Below are positions 35,013 through 50,769 of a stretch of DNA of 61,182 bases, in pieces (the stretch's first letter is position 1; each line of letters starts with the position of its first letter). The position numbers and the translations under genes were made by a program. Origin of the DNA: Chloroflexi bacterium OHK40 (GTDB lineage: Bacteria > Chloroflexota > Chloroflexia > Chloroflexales > Chloroflexaceae); the NCBI GenBank assembly GCA_004367505.1, contig SFCB01000245.1:1-61182 (forward strand), written 5' to 3'. The notes under the pieces were generated by a model. The model was given only the letters and a program-made list of their open reading frames with translations, did no database searches and had not been told where the DNA came from.

Positions 35013-36008
35013 TCAGCCCAGCTTCCGTACGTCCCACCAGATCCCCGGCAGGCGCGCGAGCTTCTCGCGCAGGCTCAGATGCGCGCGGCGGGTGTGGGCA
35101 TCGTAACCATTGGCGGCGAGCTTGTCAAGGATGCCACGGTACACCCGGGCAGCTGCTCCGATCGCCAGCCGGCTCTCGGGGGGCAGCAGGGCGATCCCCG
35201 GCCAGCTTTCGTCGTACAGGCGCTGGGCCCGCTGTACCTCGAAGCGCATCAGGCGACGGAAGCGCTCGTCGAGCACCCCCGCGAGGATCTCGTCGGCCGT
35301 GAGGCCAAAGCGCTCGAGATCTTCCTGGGGAAGGTACACGCGGCCACGTTGCGCATCCTCGCCGACGTCGCGGAGGATGTTGGTGAGCTGGAGCGCCACG
35401 CCGAGCTTGATCGCATAGGGCTCGGCACCCGGCGCGTGGCCGGTAATGCCCATCACCAGCAGGCCGACGACCGAGGCCACCCGGTAGCAGTAGAGCCACA
35501 GATCCGCGAATGTCGCGTAGCGCTGGATGGTCAGGTCCATCGCCACACCGGCCAGCAACTCATCAACCAGCGCAGCGGGCAGGCCGTAGCGGGCGCGTGT
35601 ATCGTGCCAGGCCACCAGCACCGGGTTGTGGTGGGCGGGGGCATTGCCCCGGGCCTGGTGAACCCAGGCCGCCAGGGCCCGCGCTGGATCGTCAGTCGCG
35701 AGGTCGACCGTATCGTCGGTCGTGCGGCAGAAGGCGTACAGCGCTCGCACAGCCCGGCGCTTCTCCACGTCCAGAAATTGGGAGCTAAAGTAGAAGCTCT
35801 TGGAATGGCGCCGGATGATCCGCTCGCACTCCGCGTAGGCCTCTGCGATGGCGTGAGGTGGATGAGGGTGCCACTCATCGGTGCCAGGATGGGGCGCCAG
35901 GTCGGTGAGGTGAAAGAGTAAGGCCAGCTGCTCCTCGGCGGGGAGCGGTTGAGCCAGGCGGGCGACCGTAGCGCCGAGCGCAAGCGAAGGGACAGTCTTC
36001 AACGTCAC
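35013..36008 (-). CDS. crtB: phytoene/squalene synthase family, likely phytoene synthase
   Basis: GTG 36008 is the start because AAGGAGAG lies 6 bases upstream. The 331-residue protein joins two prenyl diphosphates head to head. Both Asp-rich motifs are present: RTTDDTVD with the preceding HSKSFYFSSQFLD, and LTNILRDVGEDAQRGRVYLP. Phytoene synthase (first committed carotenoid step) is the best call because a CarH-type regulator gene lies just upstream and its operator repeats abut this promoter; squalene-type enzymes are the alternative. No desaturase or cyclase genes are adjacent. Confidence 0.9.
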   Translation of the reverse strand: MTLKTVPSLALGATVARLAQPLPAEEQLALLFHLTDLAPHPGTDEWHPHPPHAIAEAYAECERIIRRHSKSFYFSSQFLDVEKRRAVRALYAFCRTTDDTVDLATDDPARALAAWVHQARGNAPAHHNPVLVAWHDTRARYGLPAALVDELLAGVAMDLTIQRYATFADLWLYCYRVASVVGLLVMGITGHAPGAEPYAIKLGVALQLTNILRDVGEDAQRGRVYLPQEDLERFGLTADEILAGVLDERFRRLMRFEVQRAQRLYDESWPGIALLPPESRLAIGAAARVYRGILDKLAANGYDAHTRRAHLSLREKLARLPGIWWDVRKLG

Positions 36009-36268
36009 GCAACTCTCCTTGGTACGCGGTGCATCCATGGGCATGTGCCCGTGCGCACCGGGCGGTCGGCGGGCTGACCGGACGCAGGGGTGCATGGACG
36101 TGAGACACGTGGCCCGGTTGCTGCCGGCCCACGAGACCGACAGACGGTTAGCTACGGTGTACGGGCGGTTGCAGTCACCAGGTGCCTATCATCGAGCCGG
36201 TACTTCGCAGCGCCCCAGGCTACCACAACCGTCAAGCCAGGTGATCTGTGTCGAACAGTGCTACCTTC

Positions 36269-36297
36269 ATCATACGTGAATCGTAGCATAAAGGCAA
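36269..36297 (-). promoter_or_regulatory. crtB promoter
   Basis: TTGCCT (36297-36292), a 17-base spacer and TATGAT (36274-36269) on the minus strand. The transcript would start near 36262, giving a leader of about 250 bases before crtB. Confidence 0.75.
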
Positions 36298-36301
36298 CTG
36301 A

Positions 36302-36323
36302 CGGTGTGCAAAACAAGTGCATC
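36302..36323 (-). promoter_or_regulatory. predicted CarH operator at crtB promoter
   Basis: Two adjacent 11-bp units on the minus strand, gaTGCACTtgt (36323-36313) and ttTGCACAccg (36312-36302). They follow the nnTnnACAnnn pattern, the first with one mismatch. The next 11-bp position holds the -35 hexamer of crtB. Confidence 0.65.
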
Positions 36324-36698: not shown

Positions 36699-37646
36699 CT
36701 AACGACTATGGCCGAGCAAGTCGGCTACCGTATCAACGGCCTCAAGGGCATCTTTGCCAAGGAAGGTGCCGGGCATGCGCTGGGTCATCACCGGGTTGAG
36801 GTTGAAGGCCCGGCCGCCGTAGCCGAAGAGGGGTGTGGGGGGAGCGATGGCAAGGATGGCGCGGCCCGCCTCGAGCAACTGGGTTGCCGTCTCGGTGGTC
36901 GAGGCAGCCATCGCCACCAGGTCTGGCCGGAGCTGCCGCACCGTGTCGAGAAGATCCCGCAGGGGCACCTCGGGGCCGAGGTAGATCACCTGCCAGCCGT
37001 GGCGCACCAGGAAGACCGCGAGCATGAGCGCTCCCAGGTCATGCTGCTCACTGGGAGCGCAGGCCACGAGCACGAGGCCACGGCCATCGGTAATGTTATA
37101 AGTATTGAAGAGGGCCGAGAGCTTGCGGCGAATGAACTGGGTGGCAAAGTGCTCGGCTGTCACGGTGAGCTTGCCAGCGTGCCACTGCTCGCCGATCTCG
37201 ACCATCACTGGCTGGACCAGTTTGAGGAATACTTCCTCGAGCGGATAGAGCGCGAAGGCCTCACCGAGGATCTGCTCAGCTCGTGTCGCATCAAAATCTA
37301 CCAGGGCGGCGAGAAACCGGCTGTTGAGCCGCTCCCAGGTATGAGGCTCCGTATCGATGGCCGTGCTGAGCCAGGAGAGGTTCGACTCGTTGCCGTCGCT
37401 CATCAGCGCGATCGCCTGGCTGATGGTCAGGCCCTCGGCCGTGCGATCCCGCAGCCAGCGAATCGTCGCGATGTCCCGCTCGGAGTAAAGCCGGTGACCG
37501 CCCTCGGTCCGCTGGGGGCGCGGCACACCGTAGCGGCGCTCCCAGGCGCGGAACGTGTCTGCAGGTACGCCCGTCTCCTGAGCGACGGCCTTGGTGTTGT
37601 ACCGAGGCTTGTCCGAGAATTGCGTCAGAAAATGCTGCTGAGCCAT
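36699..37646 (-). CDS. carH: CarH-type B12-dependent photoreceptor repressor (MerR family)
   Basis: 315 residues from ATG 37646. The MerR winged helix spans about 15-83 (YNTKAVAQETGVPADTFRAW). A four-helix cap follows, and then a cobalamin-binding domain. Residues that hold adenosylcobalamin in Thermus CarH are all present at the right spacing: W155-H156, E165-H166 (WHAGKLTVTAEH) and the lower axial His202 in EQHDLG. In that family the dark tetramer binds operators and represses, and light breaks the Co-C bond and releases DNA. Its neighbour crtB fits a carotenoid role. Operator-like 11-bp repeats lie at its own promoter. A terminator follows the gene, so it is monocistronic. Confidence 0.92.
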   Translation of the reverse strand: MAQQHFLTQFSDKPRYNTKAVAQETGVPADTFRAWERRYGVPRPQRTEGGHRLYSERDIATIRWLRDRTAEGLTISQAIALMSDGNESNLSWLSTAIDTEPHTWERLNSRFLAALVDFDATRAEQILGEAFALYPLEEVFLKLVQPVMVEIGEQWHAGKLTVTAEHFATQFIRRKLSALFNTYNITDGRGLVLVACAPSEQHDLGALMLAVFLVRHGWQVIYLGPEVPLRDLLDTVRQLRPDLVAMAASTTETATQLLEAGRAILAIAPPTPLFGYGGRAFNLNPVMTQRMPGTFLGKDALEAVDTVADLLGHSR

Positions 37647-37745: not shown

Positions 37746-37774
37746 ATTGTATCACGTTGCACAAATAGCGTCAA
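37746..37774 (-). promoter_or_regulatory. carH promoter
   Basis: TTGACG (37774-37769), a 17-base spacer and TACAAT (37751-37746) on the minus strand. The leader to ATG 37646 is about 95 bases. Confidence 0.8.
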
Positions 37775-37788
37775 TGAAATGCACAAAG
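37756..37788 (+). promoter_or_regulatory. predicted CarH operator at carH promoter
   Basis: Three contiguous 11-bp units read on the plus strand. The first (gtTGCACAaat, 37756-37766) and third (aaTGCACAaag, 37778-37788) match nnTnnACAnnn exactly. The middle unit (37767-37777) is degenerate because it coincides with the -35 hexamer. Autoregulation is implied. Confidence 0.75.
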
Positions 37789-45995: not shown

Positions 45996-46234
45996 AGCCA
46001 GCCGCAGTTCGTGGTATTGCCCGCCCATCGCGATGCCAGCCGGGGCCCGGTCAAGGCGCGGAACGCCCCACCCCTAGCGCGCGGGCAACGGTGCCACTCT
46101 ACGCCGGCAGCTCGCCCGTCTCGCACTCCGGCAGGAATTATCCGGCGGGCAGGTGTTGTGCATTACAGACAACCTGGCATTGCTTGTGCAAAGTGTGGGG
46201 AGGATGGGTTCGGCTTATTTCGGCAACCCGTAGC
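45996..46234. other. intergenic region with two TGTGCA boxes
   Basis: Divergent interval between the SigK-like gene and the polyprenyl synthase gene, without a gene. TGTGCA occurs at 46157-46162 and 46185-46190 in the same direction, 28 bases apart. This spacing is not a multiple of 11, so a CarH site is doubtful. Confidence 0.4.
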
Positions 46235-46262: not shown

Positions 46263-46374
46263 GAAGATTGTGGCGAATATCACAAGCAGGCGACAGAGGT
46301 ACCGTGTAGCGGCTGCGAGCCCGGCCTGACCGCGACCGCTCCGGCCGAAGGTGGCCCTAGAGAGGAACAGCCCG

Positions 46375-47448
46375 ATGGCTGCCTACCAGACTTCTCCCGG
46401 AACCGATGTCGCCGTCGTGATCAATCCCCTGAGTAACGCCGATCCTCACCCCACGCCATCACGCCCGGTGGCCGCTATCAGCCTGGCCGAGCTCTTCGAG
46501 CGCGCCAATCTGACGGGCGACCTACAGGCCGTGGAACGTCTGTTGCTCGAGCGCGCCAGCTCCCGCTCGGAACTGATCGCCGCCGCAAGCACGCACACGG
46601 TACGCTCAGGCGGAAAGCGCCTGCGGGCAGCCCTGGCGCTGCTGTCGGCCCGGCTCGGCAACTACAGCCTGCCGCGCGTGATCCATGCGGCCGCCGCCGT
46701 CGAGCTGATCCAGGCGGCCTCGCTCGTCCACGACGACCTGGTGGACCAGGCGAGCCGCCGGCGTGGCCGGGTAACGGTCCACGCCCGCTGGGACAACGAC
46801 GTCGCGCTCATGGTGGGCGATTACTTCTTCGCCCTGGCCGCCGGCGAGATGGCCCTCAGCCCTGACCCACGGATTATCGGCTACTACGCGCAGGCCGTGC
46901 AGACGATCGTCGAGGGCGAACTCAGCCCGGTCACCGTCGTTGAGCCGTCAGAGACGGCGCTCGGCCAGTATTATTTCAAGACGAGCGCCAAGACGGCGTC
47001 GCTCTTCGAAGCGGCGTGCAAAGCCGGGATGGCTGCCGGCGGGGGAAGCGAGGCCCAGATCACGGCGCTGGGCCGCTACGGCCTCGACCTTGGCATGGCC
47101 TTCCAGATTATCGACGACGTGCTGGACTTCGTGGGCGACGAGCACGTGCTGGGCAAGCCGGCGGGCAACGACCTGCGCCAGGGCACGATTACGCTCCCCC
47201 TGATCTACGCCGTGGCCCGCACCGGGAACCCTCAACTCCGGACGATCGTCGAGCGCGGACATCCGAGCGATGGGGAGGTTGCGGCGGCGATCGCGGAAGT
47301 GGTCGCTGTAGGCGGCGTAGAGGCGGCGCTGGCCGAGGCGCGGCGCTACATCGGGCAGGCCATCGGCCATCTCGCCGAGTTTCCGCCCTCAGGTGCCCAG
47401 CGCGCCCTGATCGATGTCGCGCACTTCGTGATCAGCCGCAACGCCTAG
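46375..47448 (+). CDS. polyprenyl diphosphate synthase
   Basis: Trans-prenyltransferase of 357 residues from ATG 46375. It has SGGKRLRAALALL, the first Asp-rich motif in SLVHDDLVDQASRRRG, GDYFFALAA, and the second in MAFQIIDDVLDFVGD. KPAGNDLRQGTITLPLIYA follows. It elongates isoprenyl diphosphates with IPP. The two residues ahead of the first motif are small (L-V), so a long product such as octaprenyl or solanesyl (quinone tail) is as likely as geranylgeranyl for carotenoids. The N-terminus has a non-conserved tail of about 35 residues. Confidence 0.93.
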   Translation: MAAYQTSPGTDVAVVINPLSNADPHPTPSRPVAAISLAELFERANLTGDLQAVERLLLERASSRSELIAAASTHTVRSGGKRLRAALALLSARLGNYSLPRVIHAAAAVELIQAASLVHDDLVDQASRRRGRVTVHARWDNDVALMVGDYFFALAAGEMALSPDPRIIGYYAQAVQTIVEGELSPVTVVEPSETALGQYYFKTSAKTASLFEAACKAGMAAGGGSEAQITALGRYGLDLGMAFQIIDDVLDFVGDEHVLGKPAGNDLRQGTITLPLIYAVARTGNPQLRTIVERGHPSDGEVAAAIAEVVAVGGVEAALAEARRYIGQAIGHLAEFPPSGAQRALIDVAHFVISRNA

Positions 47449-47482: not shown

Positions 47483-48673
47483 TCAGCGTTTCTTGAGCGC
47501 GTAGCGGATGCCTTCCTGCAGATCGGCCCGGGTGACGATATCCCCGAGGTCGATCCCGAGGGCGACGATCGTCTGCGCGACATCCGGGCGGATGCCGGTT
47601 AGCACGAGCTCGGCGCCGAGGAGGCGCACGGCCCGCGCGCACTGGATCAGGACATTGGCGACCTGGGTATCGACCACTGGTACCCCGGTGATATCGAGGA
47701 TCACCAGGTCGGCCCGCTGCCCGTCCACCGCCTGAAGCAGACTCTCCACAACACGCGCTGCCCGACCGCTATCCAGGGCGCCGATCAGCGGCAGCACCAG
47801 CGCCCCGGTGCTGATGCGCAACAGCGGGGTCGAGAGCTCGGCAAGCAACGCATCCTGGGCGCGGATCGTCTCTTCGGCCTCAGCTTGCTGGCGCCGAAGC
47901 GCGTCGGCCTCCTTCAGCTCGGTAATGTCGGTGCGAATGCCGACGATCCCCCCATCGGCGGTGGGCCGATCTACCGACCTGATCCAGCGACCGCTACTGA
48001 GGCGTATCTCGACCGTCTGGAGCCCCCGGTGTTGCGCGAGCCGTTCGGCCACCCACTCCTCGACGCGCCCGATGGCGGCGGGGTATTGCCCCCGCTGGGC
48101 GCCGATACGCACGATCTCCTCAAAGCTGCGGCCAGGGACCATCAGGTCGGCGCTATCGCTGTAGATCTCGCGATAGCGCCGGTTGCAGTACACCAGGCGA
48201 TCCTCTGCGTCGTAGAGCGCAAACCCGTCGGAGATACTCTCAACGGCGTCGCGGAACTGGGCGAAGAGCCGCGCCGACTCGGCCTCCAACAGTTGCCAGC
48301 GTGTCACATCGGTCAGCTGCCAGATCAGGCCGTCGCCGCCCGGAAGCGTCGCAATGACCCCGACAGCCCAGCGCTCGGGCGGCTCAGCGATCTGCGCCTC
48401 GAAGCTCACGCGCTCCTGGAGCCCGGCGAGCAGATCACGTAGTTCGGCAACCAGACCCTGCCAATCAGCATCGTTCCAGTGGAACAGGGCCGCACAGGCC
48501 GCCTCCAGCCCCAGGCCCATCCCCGTATTGACAAAGATATCCCGCCACGCAGCGTTCACGCTGCGCACAATCCCATCCCGAGAGGTTATAGCGCATGGCC
48601 CGGGCATGAGCTCAATGAGCTGGTCCAGGACGATGGAAGGGCTATTAGTGGCACGAGGAGTCGCATCGGACAT
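47483..48673 (-). CDS. PAS-PAS-STAS sensor regulator (RsbR-like)
   Basis: 396 residues, no membrane helix. A first PAS-like domain (about 10-125, [21 protein letters not shown]) is followed by a second PAS (about 145-255, [23 protein letters not shown] ending [16 protein letters not shown]). A short coiled coil leads into a STAS domain (about 285-395, [20 protein letters not shown] and [20 protein letters not shown]). RsbR-type proteins of this layout sit in stressosomes that control sigma-B-like responses; the STAS Thr at VVDTQVAN fits the phosphorylation site. It is divergent from the SDR gene across the predicted triple CarH operator. Confidence 0.9.
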
Positions 48674-48754
48674 AGGGGTGCTCCACCGTAGACGGCTGAG
48701 ATGAGAGCCTTCTCATTTTACCACGGGGGGCTAGGCAAACTGAAACCAGTGTGG

Positions 48755-48760
48755 TACAAC
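48755..48760 (+). promoter_or_regulatory. candidate -10 box of SDR gene
   Basis: TACAAC preceded by TGG, 53 bases before the GTG start and 2 bases before the first operator repeat. The -35 position (TAGGCA at 48732) is weak, so this promoter may be poor or need an activator. Confidence 0.4.
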
Positions 48761-48762
48761 TA

Positions 48763-48795
48763 TCTGCACAAACATTGCACAGGTATTGCACAGTT
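48763..48795 (+). promoter_or_regulatory. three perfect 11-bp direct repeats, predicted CarH operator
   Basis: Three contiguous units, tcTGCACAaac (48763-48773), atTGCACAggt (48774-48784) and atTGCACAgtt (48785-48795), all match nnTnnACAnnn. The phase is exact, so the cores start at 48765, 48776 and 48787. The site lies in the 139-base divergent region between the PAS-STAS gene (minus) and the SDR gene (plus), next to the likely SDR transcription start. The form is that described for the Thermus CarH operator, and carH is in this window. Confidence 0.85.
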
Positions 48796-48812
48796 TCGAG
48801 GGGGGGGCACGG

Positions 48813-49526
48813 GTGAAGCTTCAAGGGAAGGCAGCCCTGGTAACTGGCGGCGGGCGCGGCCTTGGACGAGCCATCGCGCTGGCCCTGGCGCAGGAAGGGG
48901 CCGTGGTGGCGGTTGCCGCGCGCAGCACTGACGACGTGGCAGAGACGGCGTGGCTGATCGGCGAGCAGGGGGGGCGGGCGGTCGCCTTCACCGCCGACGT
49001 ACGGGAGAGTTCCCAGGTTACCGCTCTGGTGAGCGATGCCCAGGCGGCCCTCGGCCCACTGCACATCCTGGTGAACAGCGCTGGCGTCGGCCTGCGAGCC
49101 CCCATCTACGAGACGAGCGAGGATCAATGGGACGCGGTGCTCGATACGCTGCTCAAGGGCACCTTCCTGTGTAGCCGGGCGGTGATCCCGCAGATGATCG
49201 AGCTCGGCGGCGGCAATATCATCAATCTCGGCGCGCCCCTGGAGCGAATCGCCACGCCGGGCTTCGCCGCCTACTATGCGGCAAAATGTGGGGTGGACGG
49301 CCTGACGCGCGTGATGGCCAAGGACCTGCGGCGCTTCGGGATCAATGTCAATGCCGTGCACCCGGGTGGCTTTGCCGACACCCAGCTGGTACGTACCACC
49401 GTCCCCGGCCTACGGGACGGGTTGCGCTCGCCCGCCGAGATCGGGCCGGCCGCCGTGGCGCTGGCTGCTCAGCCGCCCCGTGGCCAGACGGGCCAGCTCA
49501 TCAATGCGCACCTCTGGCAGCCGTGA
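48813..49526 (+). CDS. short-chain dehydrogenase/reductase with altered catalytic site
   Basis: 237 residues from GTG 48813, just after a run of G that can serve as ribosome site. It has the cofactor motif TGGGRGLG (11-18), NSAG (88-91) and Y154-x3-K158 (AYYAAKCG). At the usual Ser position 13 residues before the Tyr there is Ala141 (INLGAPLERI), so classical SDR catalysis may be impaired or re-arranged. The C-terminal PRGQTGQLINAHLW is typical. The substrate is unknown. The upstream triple operator makes light- and B12-dependent expression likely. Confidence 0.85.
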   Translation: MKLQGKAALVTGGGRGLGRAIALALAQEGAVVAVAARSTDDVAETAWLIGEQGGRAVAFTADVRESSQVTALVSDAQAALGPLHILVNSAGVGLRAPIYETSEDQWDAVLDTLLKGTFLCSRAVIPQMIELGGGNIINLGAPLERIATPGFAAYYAAKCGVDGLTRVMAKDLRRFGINVNAVHPGGFADTQLVRTTVPGLRDGLRSPAEIGPAAVALAAQPPRGQTGQLINAHLWQP

Positions 49527-49553: not shown

Positions 49554-49582
49554 TTGACAAAACGTGTGCAAAGCCTGAAAAT
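49554..49582 (+). promoter_or_regulatory. promoter of group 2 sigma factor gene
   Basis: TTGACA (49554-49559), a 17-base spacer and GAAAAT (49577-49582), a weak -10. The GTG start is 123 bases further. Confidence 0.55.
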
Positions 49583-49704: not shown

Positions 49705-50769
49705 GTGAATAGCTTCCGCCAGGTAGAGGAAAGCGACGACGTCGTGACCCCGGACCTTCCCGAAGGGGAGCCTGACAGTGAGAACGACTGGGAGGTTGAG
49801 GAAGGTGAGACCGACGTCGAGGAGCTCGAACCGGAGGAGGTGGATCCCTCCGACAATGAGCCCGTCGAAGACTCGGTACAACTCTACCTGCACGAGATCG
49901 GCCAGGTGGCCTTGCTAACGGCTGAGGAAGAGCGGGACCTGGCAATCAAGATCACCCGTGGGAAAGAGGCCAGGCTGCGCCTGGACCGCGAGGAGTATAG
50001 CAGCGGCCGCGAACGTGTGCAGCTGGAGATGGAGGTGGCGCGTGGCGAGGAGGCGCGCCGCAAGCTGATCCAGGCCAACTTGCGGCTTGTGGTGAGCGTT
50101 GCCAAGAAGTATATCGGCAGCCCGATGGCCTTTATGGACCTGGTGCAAGAGGGTAATATCGGCTTGATGCGGGCCGTCGAGAAGTTCGATTACACCAAGG
50201 GCAATCGTTTCAGCACCTACGCTACCTGGTGGATCCGCCAGGCCGTCACCCGCTCGATCGCGGAGCAGAGCCGGCTGATCCGTCTGCCGGTCCACCTGAG
50301 CGAGTCGATTGTCCATCTGCGGCGGGCGATTTACCGGCTGGAGCAGCAACTCGAGCGTGAGCCCACTGCCGAGGAGCTTGCCCACGCACTCGGCATGAGC
50401 CTGCGCAAGGTGAAGCGCCTCCTTCAGGCTTCGACCCAGCCGGTCTCGCTGGAGCAGCCGCTCAACAGTGAGAGCGAGGGCCGGGTGAGCGAACTACTCG
50501 CCGACGAAAGCCTGGAGACGCCGATCGAGATCGCGGCCCAGAATATGCTCCATGCTGAGCTGAACGCCGCCCTGAACGATCTGCCCGAGCGCGAGCGCAA
50601 GATCTTGCAGCTGCGCTATGGCCTGCTTGACGGGCAGCGCCGCACCCTGGAGGAGGTTGGGGTGGCGTTTGGCATCACCCGTGAGCGCACCCGCCAGATC
50701 GAGGCCGAGGCCCTTCGCCGCCTGCGGCACCCGAGTGTTGGCCTGCGGCTGCATGGTTACCTTGACTGA
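49705..50769 (+). CDS. group 2 (RpoD-like) RNA polymerase sigma factor
   Basis: 354 residues from GTG 49705, with AGGAGA 7 bases upstream. An acidic N-terminal tail of about 65 residues precedes region 1.2 ([21 protein letters not shown]). Region 2 ([60 protein letters not shown]) is highly conserved. Region 3 and a full region 4 follow ([47 protein letters not shown]). The short N-terminus without full region 1.1 makes it a group 2 rather than the primary sigma. It lies 178 bases after the SDR gene and has its own promoter with a TGCACA dyad. Confidence 0.93.

Follow-up and report, generated by a model that had tools for sequence, protein, structure and literature searches.

Comparison across related genomes lends good support to a CarH-type operator at 48763-48795 of the window (the whole stretch of 61,182 nucleotides that was analyzed), with CarH binding and a light response as its predicted properties. 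This putative operator, its candidate targets, and its phototrophic host are what is new here. We consider it likely that the site serves the CarH protein encoded 11 kb away, which would block the SDR gene downstream and, in part, the following sigma factor gene in the dark and derepress them in the light, with carH and probably crtB under the same repression.

A perfectly phased triple repeat upstream of an SDR gene

48763..48795, plus strand: candidate CarH operator, three 11-bp direct repeats nnTGCACAnnn (pattern search, carH-promoter matrix, ortholog alignment)
48813..49526, plus strand: SDR-family protein, 237 aa, PF00106 (Pfam, alignments)
47483..48673, minus strand: divergent PAS-STAS protein, kept in the nearest ortholog (locus L133) and in Chloroflexus, missing in the loci of group g5 and Chloroploca

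The three TGCACA cores are located at 48765-48770, 48776-48781, and 48787-48792, all on the plus strand and with a period of exactly 11 bp; the original prediction had their number, phasing, and coordinates right to the base. They lie within the 139 bp that separate the PAS-STAS start (48673, minus strand) from the GTG start of the SDR gene (48813), where positions 48760-48799 read CTATCTGCACAAACATTGCACAGGTATTGCACAGTTTCGA. The array consists of tandem 11-bp direct repeats with TnnACA, by which CarH operators are defined (PMC9304148). A search for three TnnACA units at period 11 gave a single match in the window and none in any of 100 dinucleotide shuffles. Two matches were obtained for the 6.9-Mb genome, i.e., the array and a match on contig C148, which was set aside as it is of an unlike type (TTTACA/TTAACA/TTAACA) and shares no TGCACA. 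Within this genome, three exact TGCACA units occur only at 48763-48795, and TGCACA-N16-TGCACA (22 bp apart) is found in two places, the SDR array and the carH promoter (one match for the reversed-pattern control). Approximate patterns were dropped as evidence: allowing up to two mismatches in 61 genomes, about 78 matches at 11 bp compared to about 54 in the 12-bp control, which is so close that raw counts alone prove little. The strength of the case is exactness, position, and conservation. A fourth repeat upstream (GGTACA) was rejected in the window because its phasing is off by one base; the g5 counterpart is in phase.

The resident CarH protein and the motif of its own promoter

36702..37646, minus strand: CarH, 315 aa, MerR domain and B12-binding domain, the genome's only one
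37746..37785, minus strand: carH promoter, containing a putative autoregulatory operator with TGCACA cores at 37758-37763 and 37780-37785 (plus strand), same layout in 28 relatives
35013..36095, minus strand: phytoene synthase CrtB (PF00494), true start probably ~36008
36269..36321, minus strand: crtB upstream region with TGCACT (36321-36316) and TGCACA (36310-36305), 11 bp apart

The carH gene lies about 11 kb from the array and adjoins the phytoene synthase gene. CarH alone represents the MerR-B12 proteins in this genome, all other B12-binding matches being corrinoid enzymes and radical-SAM proteins. Its HTH residues are intact, and so are the B12 ligands, as had been proposed: W155, H156, E165, H166, and H202 align with W131, H132, E141, H142, and H177 of Thermus CarH (numbered by hand on the alignment). 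Roles in holding AdoCbl and in the light switch are described for W131, H132, E141, and H177 (PMC10442372), and a MerR HTH combined with a B12 domain carrying their equivalents agrees with class I of LitR/CarH. The matched PDB entries, 3whp and 5c8d, are Thermus CarH structures. The best CarH-family match was NCBIfam TransRegCarH with 187 bits (E 4e-55), below the equivalog cut-off of 400 bits, and the protein is therefore best called a divergent CarH homolog, not a named equivalog.

The carH promoter reads TTGACG (37774-37769)-17-TACAAT (37751-37746), and its −35 element is flanked by TGTGCA on both sides. Such a layout agrees with the picture expected for autoregulation by a binder of 11-bp repeats, with the −35 element occupying the middle repeat. 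TGCACA-N16-TGCACA with the exact 22-bp spacing was present in the carH promoters of 28/28 relatives with a readable promoter. The 56 half-sites of these promoters were used to build a matrix, from which this genome was left out. Applied to the window, the matrix ranked the SDR array first (38.1) and the resident carH promoter second (28.5), followed by the next place with 10.5. The array shares its motif with the resident carH promoter and with those of relatives; taken with conservation and promoter alignment, this comparison gives good support to the earlier proposal of a CarH-type operator and of light control over the SDR gene. At crtB, the TGCACT/TGCACA pair is situated immediately 5' of TTGCCT-17-TATGAT, and a comparable pair precedes crtB in loci L017-L020.

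A different regulator with a TTGCACA half-site, be it another MerR-type protein or a redox/photosystem regulator, might bind the array, with CarH controlling carotenoid genes only. Such a half-site could be common to other MerR-family proteins of the genome, TGCACA-like pairs are found near unrelated genes, and the SDR motif of Chloroflexus (TGCAAA) is unlike the carH motif of that genus (TGCACA). However, the matrix that finds the site was built from carH promoters alone, and CarH has no second MerR-B12 protein beside it. Furthermore, half-site, period, and three-copy layout match described CarH operators (PMC9304148), and TGT-N12-ACA, the site of the CrtJ/PpsR type (PMC9144470), was not seen in the array when inspected by eye. 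We regard control by a different regulator as improbable and CarH as the preferred binder.

Further CarH-like sequences were observed among relatives. Genomes of family f4 encode a second CarH-like paralog with 34-41% identity (L109 ~2006, L110 ~2263-2290), which has its own TGCACA/TGCATA array ~200-280 bp upstream. In many relatives, a CarH-like B12 domain (37-44% identity) is part of open frames of ~700-900 residues (e.g., G022:C896, G011:C424, and G002:C866), possibly B12-based sensor proteins.

Promoter architecture and predicted mode of action

48732..48760, plus strand: predicted SDR promoter, −35 TAGGCA (48732-48737), 17-bp spacer, extended −10 TGGTACAAC (48752-48760) (window letters, ortholog conservation)
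48701..48719, unstranded: conserved inverted repeat ATGAGAGCCTTCTCAT (ATGAGAG..CTTCTCAT) followed by a T-run, 5' of the SDR −35 element (ortholog alignment)

The extended −10 element upstream of the SDR array is TGTGGTACAAC, with the array just downstream. Among 11 aligned orthologous SDR upstream regions, this element is kept as TGTGGTACAA or, in Chloroflexus, as TGTGGTATAA, and TTGCA units follow directly 3' of it, two or three in number and spaced by 11 bp. The automatic scan missed this promoter, whose prediction is based on conservation and the extended −10 element. The array begins 3 bp after the predicted −10 (48755-48760) and spans the predicted start, so it abuts or overlaps promoter elements as a CarH operator does. 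As the predicted transcription start (~48767) falls within the first repeat, a CarH tetramer on the array would prevent initiation. In the dark, CarH tetramers carrying AdoCbl would occupy the three direct repeats at ~−4 to +29 of the SDR promoter. Light would break the Co-C bond of AdoCbl and CarH would fall apart, and its release would permit transcription of the SDR gene, at least in part jointly with the downstream SigA-like sigma gene. The same CarH would repress its own gene and probably crtB as well. Apart from these elements, the inverted repeat at 48701-48719 is kept in the window, g5, and Chloroploca, weaker in L133, and absent in Chloroflexus; it keeps its position 5' of the SDR promoter regardless of which gene lies further upstream.

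Alternatively, the array might control the divergent PAS-STAS gene, by itself or jointly with SDR; the original prediction named this gene as a possible second target. In the divergent region, 90 bp separate the PAS-STAS start from the array upstream of it, the TGTGCA copies at carH are on the sense strand just as they would be for PAS-STAS, and the gene is present in L133 and Chloroflexus, too, which rules out a private insertion of this genome. However, the promoter scan found no −35/−10 on that strand, the aligned and conserved promoter elements face SDR, and conservation of the array is best in g5 and Chloroploca, whose loci lack the gene. Since loci that retain a strong array can do without PAS-STAS, this gene is unlikely to be the target; this part of the original prediction is not supported, and we consider such control very unlikely. 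The SDR gene remains the preferred target.

Conservation and probable displacement of the proposed operator among relatives

46351..47448, plus strand: polyprenyl/GGPP-type diphosphate synthase, in several genera located directly before SDR and sigma

The host is a green filamentous bacterium, and its genome is that of a phototrophic member of the Chloroflexaceae with two reaction-centre subunits (PF00124), and its named relatives are Chloroploca, Chloroflexus, and Oscillochloris. In three genera, triple or double TTGCACA arrays are positioned 15-19 bp before the SDR start, with no more than 1 in 300 shuffles scoring as well; arrays rarely matched by shuffles were those of g1 (which includes the window), g5, and Chloroploca. 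By group, the array before SDR is strong in g1, g4, and g5 and weak in L133 and g7. L133 has one perfect and two imperfect copies. CarH operators of other phyla consist of tandem TnnACA repeats, among which imperfect copies are common (PMC9304148). The Chloroflexus SDR gene is preceded by TGCAAA instead of TGCACA copies, in which TnnACA is broken; we take these copies to be only relics. Several genera are without an array at SDR, and in g3 and g17 no array was found before SDR or GGPP synthase. The condition under which the prediction was to fall, orthologous loci without the repeats, gave a mixed outcome: the nearest genera keep the array, whereas Chloroflexus has TGCAAA and other loci have it absent or upstream of GGPP synthase.

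The latter position is found in L141, L143, L144, and L148, where GGPP synthase, SDR, and sigma are packed (21-100 bp before SDR) and GGPP synthase is the gene preceded by the best array within each locus. Some of these arrays read TTGTGCA-(−35)-TGTGCA, the middle repeat being taken up by a −35-like element in the manner of the carH promoter. Overall, the top array preceded SDR or GGPP synthase by no more than 250 bp in 13 of 22 loci, compared to about 1.3 expected (hand count), although these loci are related, not independent, and a binomial value is not a true probability. On the simplest reading, CarH control of the GGPP synthase-SDR-sigma unit would be old and the operator would have changed place, and its placement, before SDR or before GGPP synthase depending on the genus, would make a readable case of operator turnover. 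A ATTACAGACA element is also conserved beside the TTGTGCA site upstream of GGPP synthase in L141, L143, L144, L147, L148, L133, and the window (~46150-46180).

Site quality varies widely, with three perfect copies at one extreme and TGCAAA or no copies at the other, and this could also reflect a relic, i.e., decaying ancestral control of GGPP synthase, SDR, and sigma, in which the site is occupied with little effect on expression. The single TTGTGCA left in the upstream region of the window's GGPP synthase would fit such decay. We nevertheless regard a relic as highly unlikely for the window, in which the three copies are perfect and the best among the SDR sites seen; decay would not predict this.

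The SDR gene and the adjoining sigma factor gene

49705..50769, plus strand: SigA/RpoD-like sigma70 factor, regions 1.2 to 4, predicted GTG start at 49705
49554..49582, plus strand: predicted own promoter of the sigma gene, TTGACA-17-GAAAAT

Given that compact GGPP synthase-SDR-sigma loci usually carry the array before GGPP synthase, the unit under CarH control in the preferred reading probably comprises SDR and the next gene, encoding the SigA-like sigma factor. This sigma gene, one of nine in the genome whose products have sigma region 3, adjoins SDR in nearly all orthologous loci. The gap between the two genes is short and without an evident promoter in g11, g15, and g16; elsewhere, it contains a conserved TTGACAAAACCTGTGCA promoter that holds a CarH-like half-site. 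In the window, TGTGCA (49565-49570) lies 11 bp from the −35 element of the sigma gene, possibly as a weak CarH half-site. As the sigma gene has a predicted promoter of its own in most genomes, read-through from SDR may be minor. Compared to these findings, the original prediction was incomplete: it did not include the SigA-like sigma factor next to SDR, the link with GGPP synthase, further CarH-type sites at carH and crtB, or the phototrophic host.

In the SDR protein, the catalytic Asn and Ser are replaced (DTLLKG and NLGAPLERI), so that two of the four residues of the classical Asn-Ser-Tyr-Lys set are lost, while Tyr154 and Lys158 are invariant in 14 orthologs. The loss of Ser and Asn extends to all orthologs and makes ordinary reductase activity doubtful; the family is possibly one of pseudoenzymes. 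CarH likely controls a gene pair including a sigma factor in a genome with reaction-centre genes, and the genes switched on by light in this bacterium probably extend beyond those for carotenoids. For these phototrophs, CarH control of a sigma-containing pair would mean a direct light input into global transcription. A tentative extension, which we consider rather unlikely, is a CarH light cascade beyond pigments in phototrophic Chloroflexaceae, in which the derepressed altered SDR would act as NAD(P)-sensing partner of the SigA-like sigma factor and light and redox would jointly reprogramme RNA polymerase.

Relation to known light-dependent regulators

In Streptomyces coelicolor, the LitR-LitS link couples a LitR/CarH light switch to a sigma factor gene. 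The sigma factor is of the ECF type there, whereas here it is SigA-like, has regions 1.2 to 4, and is paired with the SDR protein. Light-induced carotenogenesis in S. coelicolor proceeds through a sigma factor and the LitR family according to Takano 2005, as cited in PMC9758184. For non-phototrophic bacteria, CarH/LitR is described as controlling carotenoid genes (PMC9758184), and our literature search found no study of CarH in Chloroflexus. The operators of Thermus thermophilus (three 11-bp repeats) and Bacillus megaterium (four) resemble the array in that 11-bp TnnACA units are arranged in tandem over promoter elements, with a ligand-intact MerR-B12 gene nearby (PMC9304148). Their known targets are mainly carotenoid genes, whereas the array described here lies just 3' of the −10 element of a sigma-linked SDR gene in a phototroph. 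Myxobacterial CarH/CarA operators mix perfect (DR) and imperfect (dr) repeats and have the −35 element inside one repeat (PMC9304148), as at the carH promoter here; however, in the latter the −35 element coincides with the middle repeat as read from the other strand, and the targets differ. CrtJ-AerR of purple bacteria likewise provides B12-based light control in a phototroph (PMC9144470), but its B12 protein and repressor are separate and its site is TGT-N12-ACA instead of 11-bp direct repeats.

Further CarH-like sites

Other TGCACA pairs in the host genome are mostly far from gene starts or in unclear places and were rejected; a convincing promoter was seen only at an MFS-type transporter gene (L104 2457-2530, contig C130). 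Upstream of this gene, TGTGCA-N5-TGTGCA-N5-TTGACA is combined with a good −10 element (TTATAC), and the gene is a possible further CarH target. Two further TTGAC-N6-TGTGCA promoters were noted in the same genome (L186 1501 and L187 1501), one of them before a Na/Ca-exchanger-like gene. In three genomes of the Chloroploca group, a four-copy CarH-like array (TGTATA, TGCACA, TGCACA, and TTCACA; L115 2206-2250 on G003 C169, also L080 and L081) precedes a gene that, judging by eye from its sequence, is glutathione-peroxidase-like.
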